From: Chloroflexota bacterium
GTDB lineage: Bacteria; Chloroflexota; UBA6077; FW602-bin22; JAMCVK01
NCBI GenBank assembly: GCA_023475225.1
Contig: JAMCVK010000019.1
Location: forward strand, 1-64,000
DNA length: 64,000 nt
Direction of reading: 5' to 3'
Shown: piece after piece, positions 6,054 through 28,177 of the stretch
Layout of the letters: every line of letters begins with the position of its first letter
How positions within the stretch are numbered: the first letter of the stretch is position 1
Notes under the pieces: generated by a model
What the model was told of the DNA's origin: nothing
Database searches by the model: none
Seen by the model: the letters and a program-made list of their open reading frames with translations, nothing else
Position numbers and translations under genes: made by a program

Positions 6054-6260
6054 ATGCGTACCTTCAACTTGACTGTTGGTTTGATCTCGTCACTCATTGG
6101 GGTGGCTATGATTGTCGCCGTCCTTCATTATCAGCAACACTGGGGGCTGGCGCTTGGCTTTGTTTTGGCCGCAGTCTTTCTCGTCAACGGGCTGGTACGC
6201 CTGTGGAATGTCCGGCGGATGAGTCGGACGGATGAAGAGACGAAACGAGGGCGCTTGTAA
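6054..6260 (+). CDS. Small two-helix membrane protein
   Basis: Unrecognised 68-residue protein. Two hydrophobic helices (about residues 7-25 and 30-50) are followed by a basic tail (RRMSRTDEETKRGR), placing both ends in the cytoplasm. Support for a real gene: a promoter at 5983, a ribosome-site-like TAGGTAG just before the ATG, and an intrinsic terminator after it. No function can be assigned. Confidence 0.6.
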   Translation: MRTFNLTVGLISSLIGVAMIVAVLHYQQHWGLALGFVLAAVFLVNGLVRLWNVRRMSRTDEETKRGRL

Positions 6261-6300
6261 GGGTACGTTAAGGGCAAGGAGCGAGAGACGATGGCTCAAG

Positions 6301-6330
6301 GGCAAAAGGATAGAAACCTTTTGCCTTTTA
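6301..6330 (+). terminator. Intrinsic terminator
   Basis: GGCAAAAGG (6301-6309) pairs with CCTTTTGCC (6317-6325), loop ATAGAAA, followed by TTTTA. It separates the small membrane protein gene from the universal stress protein gene. Confidence 0.7.
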
Positions 6331-6373
6331 TGGTTTGGGCTGGGACTATCCTCAGTAGGGGGGAGGATGAACG

Positions 6374-6811
6374 ATGAAGGTACGTAGGGTTCTCGTGCCA
6401 GTCAGCGGAAATAGGATCGATGCTGAAGTAGTGCGCACGGCCTGCAACATGGCTAAGAATAATAAAGCTCATGTTTATGTGATCTATGTGATTGAGGTGA
6501 ACCGGGCACTACCCCTTGACGCCGAGATCGAGCCGGAGAGTCAAAAGGGAGAACAACTTCTGGATCAGGCTATGCAGATCGCTGAGGAGGCAGACTTCGA
6601 CGATATAGACACAGAGCTTCTCCAGTCTCGTGACGTCGGTTCGGCGATAGTGGACGAAGCAGCGGAGAGGAGTGCTGACATCATCATCATGGGCATCCCT
6701 TATAAGAAACGCTTTGGTGAGTTCAGTATTGGCCGAACGGCGAACTACGTTTTGAAAAACGCTCCTTGCTATGTTTGGGTCCTGAGAGAACAGATCAGTG
6801 AGTTGGAATAG
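6374..6811 (+). CDS. Universal stress protein (UspA family)
   Basis: Single Usp domain of 145 residues. It starts with the beta strand RRVLVPVSGN, typical of the family, and ends with IIIMGIPYKKRFGEFSIGRT and VLKNAPCYVWVL, corresponding to the nucleotide-binding loop and last strand. The glycine spacing of the ATP loop is only a loose match, so ATP binding is uncertain. It precedes two TrkA-type regulators by 75 bp on the same strand; Usp proteins often accompany ion-transport genes, which suggests a link to potassium or membrane-energy stress. Confidence 0.9.
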   Translation: MKVRRVLVPVSGNRIDAEVVRTACNMAKNNKAHVYVIYVIEVNRALPLDAEIEPESQKGEQLLDQAMQIAEEADFDDIDTELLQSRDVGSAIVDEAAERSADIIIMGIPYKKRFGEFSIGRTANYVLKNAPCYVWVLREQISELE

Positions 6812-25257: not shown

Positions 25258-25491
25258 CTAATCGATCACCAAACAGGTGAGGGTCTCGTGCACACCAGGA
25301 ATCGTCTGGAGTTTCGTCACTACCGTCTCTCCGATGGTGACCAGGTCTGGTGCCTCAATCATTGTGATGACATCGTAAGGGCCGGTTAGGGCGTGGGTAT
25401 GCTGGGTGTACTTGATCTGGGAGATCGCCTGGGCCACTTCCCTGGGCTTGCCAGGGGCAACTTTTATGAGAACATAAGCGGCAACAGCCAT
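25258..25491 (-). CDS. Stand-alone RAM (Lrp/AsnC ligand-binding) domain protein
   Basis: 77-residue protein: the RAM domain of Lrp/AsnC regulators without the DNA-binding helix-turn-helix. AAYVLIKVAPGKPREVAQAI and HALTGPYDVITMIEAPD show the beta-alpha-beta fold and ligand loop that binds amino acids at dimer interfaces. ATG at 25491 has GGAGGATGATATT before it. It follows the glutamate-synthase-like gene with a palindrome between, so it may sense an amino acid for that enzyme or act on another regulator; this is inference. Confidence 0.88.
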   Translation of the reverse strand: MAVAAYVLIKVAPGKPREVAQAISQIKYTQHTHALTGPYDVITMIEAPDLVTIGETVVTKLQTIPGVHETLTCLVID

Positions 25492-25513
25492 AATATCATC
25501 CTCCTTAATTATT

Positions 25514-25546
25514 TGTAGGGTCGGGCCAGCCGCGCCCGACCCTACA
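25514..25546. repeat. Palindromic repeat, family A-like
   Basis: TGTAGGGTCGGGC (25514-25526) pairs exactly with GCCCGACCCTACA (25534-25546). It lies in the 65-bp gap between the glutamate-synthase-like and RAM genes, and could separate their transcripts. Confidence 0.7.
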
Positions 25547-25556
25547 TTCAGCCGCA

Positions 25557-27161
25557 TTAGAAATCGAGAATTGTCTCCATCGCGTCTCTATCGGCCTCCT
25601 GGACGGTGGGGATGCCGGTAACTTGGCTGGCCCATTCGGTTAGGGCGACGATGTCGCTGCGATCGAGCAGGTCGAGGCGCCACTTCCTGGCACCGGCCAG
25701 CAGTTGTTTTAGTCCGATCCCAATCCTCTCTATAAAGTAAGTATATAGCCCTACAGCTGACCAGGGTATTGTTTTGCCGAGACCATCGCCGCTAATGCTT
25801 CTTAAGTCGCTGGCGGAGATGAAGAATTGCTCAGGGCTGGAGCCGTAGAGGTCGGCGAAGCTGCGCGGCAGTTTGCCCTGGGCAGCCAATTCGGTAAAAT
25901 ATTCTGACTTCATAACGGCCAGTAAGGGTGCCCTGGACATACCGATCGCCTTCACATAGGGGCCGTGTCCATCACCGAGGTTACTCATGGCGATGGCCTT
26001 AAATATTTGCGCTTCGTTCACGAAGCCACCGGCGATCGCGATATCCGGTATGAACCTGCCCTTCTTCTTGAGTAGGCGGATACAGTCCAGCACCTGGGCA
26101 AGGAGGTAAACGGTGGGGGTGCTGCATTCATTCATCATCGGCACAGGGCTCATCCCGGTTCCCCCGCCGGCGCCATCGAAGGTGACCAGGTCTATCTTAG
26201 CCAGAGAGGCGCATTTCAGTGTGAAGGCCACCGCAGCAGCGTTGTAGGCCCCGGTCTTCAAGAAGACCTTTTTAGCCCCTTGGGCCCGCAGCCAGGCGAT
26301 GTCTTCCACGAAACTCCTCTCCTCGGGCATCCCTACCCGGCTGTGTCGCTCAAAGGTACGGAAGGCCCCTTTGCGGAAAGCTTCCTGCACTGTCTCATCT
26401 TCCGGGTCCGGCAGCACGATGTAGCCTCGGCCTTTCAGCATTAGGGCCCTTTCCAGGGAATTGACCCTCACCTCACCACCAATGGCTTTAGCGCCTTGTC
26501 CCCACTTCCTCTCAATGATGTTTACTCCCAGTTCCTTAAGGGCGTAGAGGTCAACCCCAAACCTCGTATCCTCGACGTTGGTCTGTACGGCGATGTCACC
26601 ATGGCGGCCATCCCAGTACTGGCGGAACTTGTTAACCCTATAGGACAGGTCCTTGGAATAGGTGACCTTCCCATCGCTGTTGAAGCGAGCCTCAGGGTCC
26701 ATCCCACAAACGTTCTCACCGATTGCCTGGATCACCCCTGATAGGGCGGCGCCCATGGCCAGGCCATCCCAATTTCTCTTGGCCACATCGGTTGAACCCA
26801 GGGCACAGATGATCAGCGGTACCTTCAACGGTACTCCCCCGGCTACGCTGGACACATCGACGTTGGGGAAGATGGCCTTATCCGGATTCGCCTCGATCCC
26901 TTCGGCCCCTCTGACCTCGACCTGAATCTGAAAGTGTGACCAGTCCAGGAAGTATTCCTTGTTGGAGGCCTGAGTGCTTTGTCCGAATTCCTCCGGACTG
27001 GGATAGAGCACCTCTCTGCCCCTGAAGGCCGACTTGCCCACTTCACACATATGGGCGCACTGTTTGATACAGATGGGACACATGCCACTGACGGGGGAGA
27101 CATCCTTTAAGCGTGTTGTGGTCCCCGTCGTTGATCTGGCGTTCTCCAGAACTCCTGACAT
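25557..27161 (-). CDS. FMN-binding glutamate synthase family protein (central GltB-like domain)
   Basis: Flavoprotein corresponding to the FMN/iron-sulfur barrel of glutamate synthase, as found alone in archaea and some anaerobes. A cysteine-rich N-terminus (CPICIKQCAHMC, residues 28-39) probably binds a cluster. The barrel shows KTGAYNAAAVAFTLKCASLAKIDLV, TFDGAGGGTGMSPVP and DIAIAGGFVNEAQIFKAIA. At 534 residues it lacks the glutaminase and GXGXG domains, so ammonia would have to come from a partner, or the reaction differs. Its start is backed by AGGAGG. A promoter, structured leader and intrinsic terminator lie upstream, so expression is probably attenuated. Confidence 0.88.
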   Translation of the reverse strand: MSGVLENARSTTGTTTRLKDVSPVSGMCPICIKQCAHMCEVGKSAFRGREVLYPSPEEFGQSTQASNKEYFLDWSHFQIQVEVRGAEGIEANPDKAIFPNVDVSSVAGGVPLKVPLIICALGSTDVAKRNWDGLAMGAALSGVIQAIGENVCGMDPEARFNSDGKVTYSKDLSYRVNKFRQYWDGRHGDIAVQTNVEDTRFGVDLYALKELGVNIIERKWGQGAKAIGGEVRVNSLERALMLKGRGYIVLPDPEDETVQEAFRKGAFRTFERHSRVGMPEERSFVEDIAWLRAQGAKKVFLKTGAYNAAAVAFTLKCASLAKIDLVTFDGAGGGTGMSPVPMMNECSTPTVYLLAQVLDCIRLLKKKGRFIPDIAIAGGFVNEAQIFKAIAMSNLGDGHGPYVKAIGMSRAPLLAVMKSEYFTELAAQGKLPRSFADLYGSSPEQFFISASDLRSISGDGLGKTIPWSAVGLYTYFIERIGIGLKQLLAGARKWRLDLLDRSDIVALTEWASQVTGIPTVQEADRDAMETILDF

Positions 27162-27320
27162 TTTTCCTCCTTTTCTCCTTAGAGCAAAAAATAAAAGATG
27201 ACCTATCTAGTTTATTTTGGATAGGTCATCTTTGATTGACTACAGGCGCATAGATGAGCGATCATCTTCTGCCTCTCCTGGGGCACTGGCCAATAGAACA
27301 GCGCTGTCTCTAATTTGCTT
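27162..27320 (-). ncRNA. Structured leader RNA, candidate riboswitch or attenuator
   Basis: Expected 5' leader of about 160 nt. In transcript order: GGGGC ... GCCCC closing a region with an inner hairpin TAGAGACAGC/GCTGTTCTA (near 27295-27313); then AGATGA-TCGC-TCATCT (near 27249-27264) flanked by AGGC/GCCT; then a 14-bp terminator hairpin. The 6-nt sequences AGATGA and TCATCT occur in both the middle hairpin and the terminator, so alternative, mutually exclusive pairing is possible. I could not match it to SAM, glycine, TPP, FMN, cobalamin, glutamine, ZTP, guanidine or T-box patterns by eye. Confidence 0.55.
27181..27233 (-). terminator. Intrinsic terminator/attenuator in the leader
   Basis: Arms 27194-27207 and 27220-27233 are exact 14-bp reverse complements, loop 12 nt. 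On the minus strand the stem is followed by TTTTATTTTTTGC. It lies about 20-30 nt before the start codon of the glutamate-synthase-like gene and downstream of its promoter, so it would stop transcription before the gene unless the stem is prevented from forming. Confidence 0.8.
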
Positions 27321-27326
27321 AGCCCC

Positions 27327-27355
27327 ATTGTAATTAGGGGTAGGGCCATTGTCAA
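27327..27355 (-). promoter_or_regulatory. Sigma-70 promoter of the glutamate-synthase-like gene
   Basis: TTGACA (27350-27355) and TACAAT (27327-27332) on the minus strand, 17 bp apart. It predicts a start near 27320, giving the leader described separately. Confidence 0.75.
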
Positions 27356-27517: not shown

Positions 27518-28177
27518 ATGGAAGCCTCGCGCGCTAGCTTGATCCAACACCTCCAGCGAGAGGGGATCAGTGATGAGGCTGTACTAGCAGCTATGGGCAA
27601 GGTGCCTCGTGAGCTATTCGTGCCCCCTTCAACCCAATATCTCGCTTATGCCGACATGCCCTTGCCCATTGGGCAAGGGCAAACCATCTCCCAGCCGTAT
27701 ATTATCGCCTTAATGACCCAGGCCCTGGCCCTCACTGGTAAGGAAAAGGTCTTGGAGATAGGTTGCGGTTCTGGCTATCATGCGGCTATTCTCGCTGAGT
27801 TAGCCGCCTGGGTCGTATCCCTTGAGCGCTTGGAATCGCTGGCTAGCCAGGCCAAACGACTGCTAGACAGATTAGGATATAGGAACATTGAGATCCACGT
27901 GGCTGATGGTACCCTTGGTTGGGAAAGGGAGGCTCCCTATGAAGCTATCATCGTCACCGCCGCTGCCCCTGCTGTTCCTCCACCTCTACTCGACCAGCTA
28001 GCTGACGGTGGGACACTGGTCATCCCCGTGGGCTCACTCTATAGCCAATCACTGTATGCGATCAGCAAAAGAGACCGGAAGATCCAGCGCAGGGACCTGG
28101 GATCCTGCCGCTTCGTGCCTCTGGTGGGCCAATTTGGCTGGTCGGAAGAGGAAGTGGCTGAGTGGGAAGGCTACTAA
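27518..28177 (+). CDS. pcm: Protein-L-isoaspartate O-methyltransferase
   Basis: Repairs isomerised aspartate in aged proteins by SAM-dependent methylation. PLPIGQGQTISQPYIIALMTQAL is the family signature and VLEIGCGSGYHAAILAELA the SAM loop; IIVTAAAPAVPPPLLDQL and GTLVIPVG complete the fold. The 219-residue length is normal. ATG at 27518 follows TTAGGGGA. It diverges from the leader and promoter of the glutamate-synthase-like gene; the 160 bp between the two promoters' regions holds no other gene. Confidence 0.95.
   Translation: MEASRASLIQHLQREGISDEAVLAAMGKVPRELFVPPSTQYLAYADMPLPIGQGQTISQPYIIALMTQALALTGKEKVLEIGCGSGYHAAILAELAAWVVSLERLESLASQAKRLLDRLGYRNIEIHVADGTLGWEREAPYEAIIVTAAAPAVPPPLLDQLADGGTLVIPVGSLYSQSLYAISKRDRKIQRRDLGSCRFVPLVGQFGWSEEEVAEWEGY

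Follow-up and report, generated by a model that had tools for sequence, protein, structure and literature searches.

The glutamate-synthase-like gene of the Chloroflexota bacterium studied here is probably preceded by a transcription attenuator that is not conserved, as judged from the order of the elements in its leader: a near-consensus promoter, a predicted intrinsic terminator and then the start codon of the gene itself. We analysed a window of 64,000 nucleotides (contig JAMCVK010000019.1, positions 1 to 64,000), in which an earlier note had proposed a new riboswitch or attenuator before this gene. The attenuator part of that proposal was supported by the anatomy of the leader, by the divergent orientation of the neighbouring gene and by the genome context, while for a new riboswitch class we found no evidence, be it in Rfam, in conservation or in excess folding.

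Leader anatomy and downstream genes

The promoter claimed in the earlier note was present, and such promoters are infrequent: TTGACA followed at 16–18 nt by at least 5/6 matches to TATAAT was found 67 times in 2.3 million strand-nt of the genome, which gives a chance rate of about 0.006 per 200 strand-nt of the window's genome for a promoter of such quality. The leader runs on the minus strand for about 158 nt from the promoter to the ATG at 27161, and ends at position 27162. We also observed a dyad, TACCCC-N10-GGGGCTA, that overlaps the -10 box (window 27320-27342, minus strand) and may be an operator; this pattern was found in just three places in the genome.

The perfect 14-bp hairpin with a T-tract before the start codon was likewise confirmed, together with its coordinates. 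The two arms of the stem (AAAGATGACCTATC/GATAGGTCATCTTT) enclose a 12-nt loop at 27233-27194, and the U-tract TATTTTTT follows directly after the stem at 27193-27186. Read on the plus strand, the tail of the hairpin (TTTGATTG) is a poor T-tract. The nearest upstream gene, encoding a protein-L-isoaspartate methyltransferase at 27518, is divergent, so there is no transcript of another gene for the hairpin to end, and the proposal that it terminates an unrelated upstream transcript fails.

Table 1. Features of the leader and of the genes downstream of it (window positions).
Feature	Position	Strand	Evidence or remark
Sigma-70-type promoter, TTGACA-17-TACAAT	27327..27355	-	11/12 matches
Predicted hairpin P1	27283..27304	-	-8.3 kcal/mol; not conserved
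Predicted hairpin P2, apical stem AGATGA-TCGC-TCATCT at 27267-27252	27243..27280	-	-11.4 kcal/mol
Possible Shine-Dalgarno site AGGAGAGG of the leader ORF	27272..27279	-	sequence
Possible leader ORF MIAHLCACSQSKMTYPK, 17 codons, stop in the terminator loop	27212..27265	-	sequence
Intrinsic terminator (predicted)	27186..27233	-	stem -18.1 kcal/mol
Shine-Dalgarno site AAGGAGG of the main gene, with spacer	27162..27172	-	sequence
Glutamate-synthase-like (FMN-domain type) protein, 534 aa	25557..27161	-	PF01645, 44.1 bits vs cut-off 20.4
Stand-alone RAM (Lrp/AsnC ligand-binding) protein	25258..25557	-	PF01037, 46 bits

The conservation of the glutamate-synthase-like protein extends over bacteria and archaea (about 60-73% identity), and a cluster of four Cys residues (C28, C31, C35 and C39) was invariant in the alignment. 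Neither sequence nor profile searches found a relative with a solved structure, and the protein has no NCBIfam name. The RAM gene probably starts at the ATG at 25491, as suggested by the Shine-Dalgarno sequence AAGGAGG. We rejected the RAM gene as a conserved partner, given that a similar ORF was present at just 3 of the approximately 98 homologous loci scanned, all of them archaeal. That the signal is an amino acid or nitrogen is no more than a guess, made from the identity of the gene. Between the two genes lies a strong hairpin without a T-tract (TGTAGGGTCGGGC/GCCCGACCCTACA; window 25514-25546, minus strand), possibly a processing or stabilising element.

Terminators in the same genome and leaders of homologous genes

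We read 1.15 Mb of the 2.74-Mb genome, with genes predicted by a simple script, and found an intrinsic terminator within 100 nt of the 3' end of only 14 out of 856 genes. Of the 186 genes whose upstream neighbour is divergent, 10 had a terminator in their upstream region. The terminators found in front of genes include those of trpE, valS, leuS and ileS, all with T-box-like sequences, that of a universal stress protein gene and that of the glutamate-synthase-like gene; two further genes share one terminator hairpin that adjoins a c-di-AMP riboswitch (RF00379, 99.5 bits). The leuS T-box scored above the Rfam threshold, the trpE leader, searched alone, reached 41.8 bits (under the gathering threshold of 93; E 3.7e-8), and valS and ileS were assigned to T-boxes by inspection of their sequences. 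In this genome, then, terminators placed directly before genes usually serve regulation, which raises the odds that the terminator of the glutamate-synthase-like leader is regulatory too. Taken together, the order of promoter, terminator and gene, the divergent neighbour and the regulatory terminators elsewhere in the genome argue for an attenuator.

Several other leaders came up in the same reading. The T-box-like leaders below the Rfam gathering threshold were those of trpE (L129 7738-8000, minus strand), valS (L138 about 6210-6352, plus strand) and ileS (L173, minus strand), and T-boxes may be under-counted in Chloroflexota. The gene of the universal stress protein, at 6374 of the window, is preceded by the terminator-like hairpin AAGGGCAAAAGG...CCTTTTGCCTTT (window 6298-6328, plus strand). 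Finally, a leader about 200 nt long (L157 2162-2380, contig C34 of the same genome), which holds several helices and a terminator-like hairpin of 14 pairs, precedes the ATPase gene of an ABC (ECF-type) transporter. Not even a relaxed Rfam search matched it, and it is a better riboswitch candidate than the glutamate-synthase-like leader.

Homologues of the glutamate-synthase-like gene were taken from GTDB genomes and from relatives in the class and the phylum. A close orthologue was found in just one genome of the same order (G007, locus L024; 70%), and its leader comprises a TATAAT box as well as a hairpin that resembles a terminator, with about 17 pairs, two mismatches and TTCTATT after it. 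This terminator-like hairpin before the gene adds support to the attenuator reading. Pairwise alignment of the two leaders gave no meaningful similarity; a likeness in the arrangement of P1, P2 and terminator can be drawn, but the two sequences cannot be aligned. Two orthologues from other Chloroflexota (L018 and L020, 71-73% identity) have leaders of about 80 nt without a terminator. Both facts count against the attenuator: L024, the one other leader that has a terminator, cannot be aligned with that of the window, and the remaining Chloroflexota orthologues lack a terminator.

The searches with the window leader returned no relatives. At the DNA level, 400 genomes of the phylum yielded only the leader itself and short chance matches. 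The single-sequence covariance model matched only itself across 36 sources of homologous loci, and itself plus one match at chance level (E 0.41) in 29 genomes of the class. An Rfam search of the homologous leaders found nothing. The outcome that the earlier note had named beforehand as refuting its proposal, homologous leaders that show the terminator but no conserved structure upstream of it, is thus what these sparse relatives show. What several of these leaders do have is a dyad directly after the -10 box (approximately tACGGCAa-N4/5-tTGCCGTa), present in L018, L020, L006, L007, L099, L105 and L109; it is carried by the two orthologues above and by several homologues at 46-52%. This dyad looks like an operator for a protein; the strict pattern was absent from the window's genome.

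Leader folding and a possible leader reading frame

The whole leader folds at -46.1 kcal/mol against -34.3 +/- 4.0 kcal/mol for shuffled sequences (z -2.95). The 86 nt upstream of the terminator showed no excess folding over shuffles (z -0.37), and the stability excess of the leader thus comes from the terminator. The several helices that the earlier note described upstream of the terminator were accordingly not significant. AGATGA and TCATCT are, as had been noted, common to the upstream hairpin and the terminator, the apical stem of P2 repeating part of the terminator arms. A 6-mer shared with a terminator arm anywhere in the upstream part was present in 32% of shuffles, while a perfect 6-bp hairpin carrying the shared 6-mer was present in only 0.09%; this sharing is unusual. 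The mutually exclusive pairing states that had been proposed on its basis did not hold: pairing in the alternative way is less favourable by 5.5 kcal/mol in the nascent prefix, which still lacks the 3' arm, and by about 13 kcal/mol once the leader is complete, and the minimum-energy fold contains the P2 hairpin and the terminator together. By themselves, the two hairpins are not exclusive states, and according to the folding energies the leader holds no terminator/antiterminator pair of comparable stability.

We consider the chances slightly better than even that the leader is a cis-acting transcription attenuator. The anatomy, in which an intrinsic terminator stands between the promoter and the start codon of its own gene, is shown, whereas termination and its regulation are inferred; it is most economical to read the terminator as acting within its own leader. 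RNA polymerase would start near 27320 and transcribe about 135 nt. By default it would stop at the 14-bp hairpin and U-tract, and only polymerases that read through would express the glutamate-synthase-like and RAM genes.

A possible trigger, absent from the account of the earlier note, is a short leader ORF with a suitably spaced Shine-Dalgarno site (codons ATG ATC GCT CAT CTA TGC GCC TGT AGT CAA TCA AAG ATG ACC TAT CCA AAA TAA). If a ribosome trailing the polymerase got as far as the UAA in the terminator loop, the 5' arm would be covered and the hairpin blocked, leading to read-through; should initiation be poor, or the ribosome stall at the early Leu-Cys-Ala-Cys codons, the 5' arm would stay free and termination would follow. 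Translation of this 17-codon ORF comes first among several weakly supported options for the trigger, and we propose it only tentatively. The L024 leader has no ORF with a canonical start and a Shine-Dalgarno site. A link between the Cys codons of the leader ORF and the invariant Cys cluster of the enzyme is speculation.

The pyrBI operon of Escherichia coli is controlled by a ribosome-mediated attenuator whose leader ORF reaches into the terminator. The same arrangement is described for bmrCD of Bacillus subtilis (PMC4191407). Like these two, the window leader combines a short ORF, led by a Shine-Dalgarno site and ending in the terminator, with a strong terminator just before the main gene. 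Unlike them, it is a predicted element that is not conserved, and its ORF is within chance: a comparable ORF reaching the terminator was present in 14% of shuffles when only ATG was allowed as start, and in 25% with ATG, GTG or TTG.

Alternative explanations and significance

In a new riboswitch class, the 86-nt stretch preceding the terminator would serve as the binding site of a small molecule (an amino acid, a nitrogen signal or a flavin) and switch the terminator. Riboswitches and T-boxes of the same genome use the same layout, and the P2 apical hairpin that repeats the terminator arm adds to the case. Against this, neither the gathering nor the relaxed thresholds of Rfam gave a match, and the relaxed setting does recover the weak trpE T-box. 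In addition, the upstream part lacks excess folding, it has neither a DNA relative in the phylum genomes nor a structural relative in the class genomes or homologous loci, and its alternative pairings are unfavourable; a new class is very unlikely. We found no conservation of an aptamer across the homologous leaders, a result that is weak with respect to a lineage-restricted class given the few close relatives. Such a lineage-restricted RNA sensor, in which a small-molecule aptamer within 27319-27234 would control the terminator of the glutamate-synthase-like operon in Chloroflexota, we regard as highly improbable. The glnA and Downstream-peptide glutamine riboswitches and the gltD candidate motif are likewise tied to glutamate-synthase-type genes; unlike the glutamine riboswitches, the window leader has no Rfam match. 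Reports of the gltD motif are limited to Selenomonadales and Veillonellales, and it is described as preceding an RBS-occluding hairpin (PMC8632094), in place of the terminator of the window leader. The T-box leaders of the same genome (RF00230; leuS and trpE, and by inspection valS and ileS) also have their terminator close before the Shine-Dalgarno site; they differ from the window leader, which has just 86 nt before its terminator. A T-box was rejected, as the leader contains no T-box sequence (UGGN in the antiterminator) and no Stem I, and RF00230 was unmatched at E values up to 10 (trpE control, E 3.7e-8).

Control by a protein has to be weighed as well, either at the terminator or at the promoter. 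In the former case, an antitermination protein such as an ANTAR regulator would bind two hexaloop hairpins and prevent the terminator from forming. The window leader does contain two A1/G4 hexaloop hairpins, UAGAgAC[AGCGCU]GUUCUA (with one bulge) and AGAUG[AUCGCU]CAUCU, and at least two such hairpins were present in only 0.6% of shuffles. An A1/G4 hexaloop hairpin overlaps the terminator in L024, in whose genome a histidine kinase and an ANTAR regulator adjoin a glnA-like gene (the glnA and kinase names were assigned by reading the sequences). ANTAR regulators often control nitrogen genes, and their targets include glutamate synthase genes (PMC3369931). The window leader thus shares with the known target RNAs (PMC3369931, PMC8934654) a pair of such hairpins ahead of a terminator and nitrogen-type gene. 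It departs from them in that the second hairpin stops 18 nt short of the terminator instead of overlapping it, and in that the linker of 26 nt is longer than the spacing that worked in published tests: eutP induction was impaired already at a linker of 14 nt (PMC3369931), and antitermination was lost upon an extension by 20 nt (PMC8934654). Furthermore, no ANTAR domain was found in the window's genome, an absence that is provisional because the genome is 96.9% complete, compared with 23 of the 29 class genomes that have one, L024 lacks a matching first hairpin, and the kinase-ANTAR-glnA operons show no clear motif. With no ANTAR protein found, no terminator overlap and a long linker, the ANTAR explanation was not upheld, and antitermination by a protein is on the whole unlikely. 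In the latter case, the terminator itself would be unregulated (acting as a fixed damper of expression, left as a relic or ending a small RNA) and the gene would be controlled by a DNA-binding protein at its promoter. This agrees with the lack of conservation of the leader, with the operator-like dyads of the other Chloroflexota orthologues, which suggest that the gene may usually be controlled by a DNA-binding protein, and with the dyad over the -10 box of the window's own promoter. Chance, however, is unlikely to have maintained a perfect 14-bp stem and its U-tract, the genome has few terminators, and most of the others lying close before genes are regulatory. We regard an unregulated terminator as a real possibility, if a rather doubtful one.

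The attenuator, if it works, would be one more case of its kind in a phylum where leader regulation has been little studied, and would identify as regulated a glutamate-synthase-like enzyme that is divergent and of unsolved structure. The case is local, since a leader without relatives defines no new RNA class, and the broader pattern of terminators may be more useful than this single leader. In the sampled part of the genome, intrinsic terminators are rarer at the ends of genes than before them, which makes leader terminators a good guide to regulatory RNAs there.
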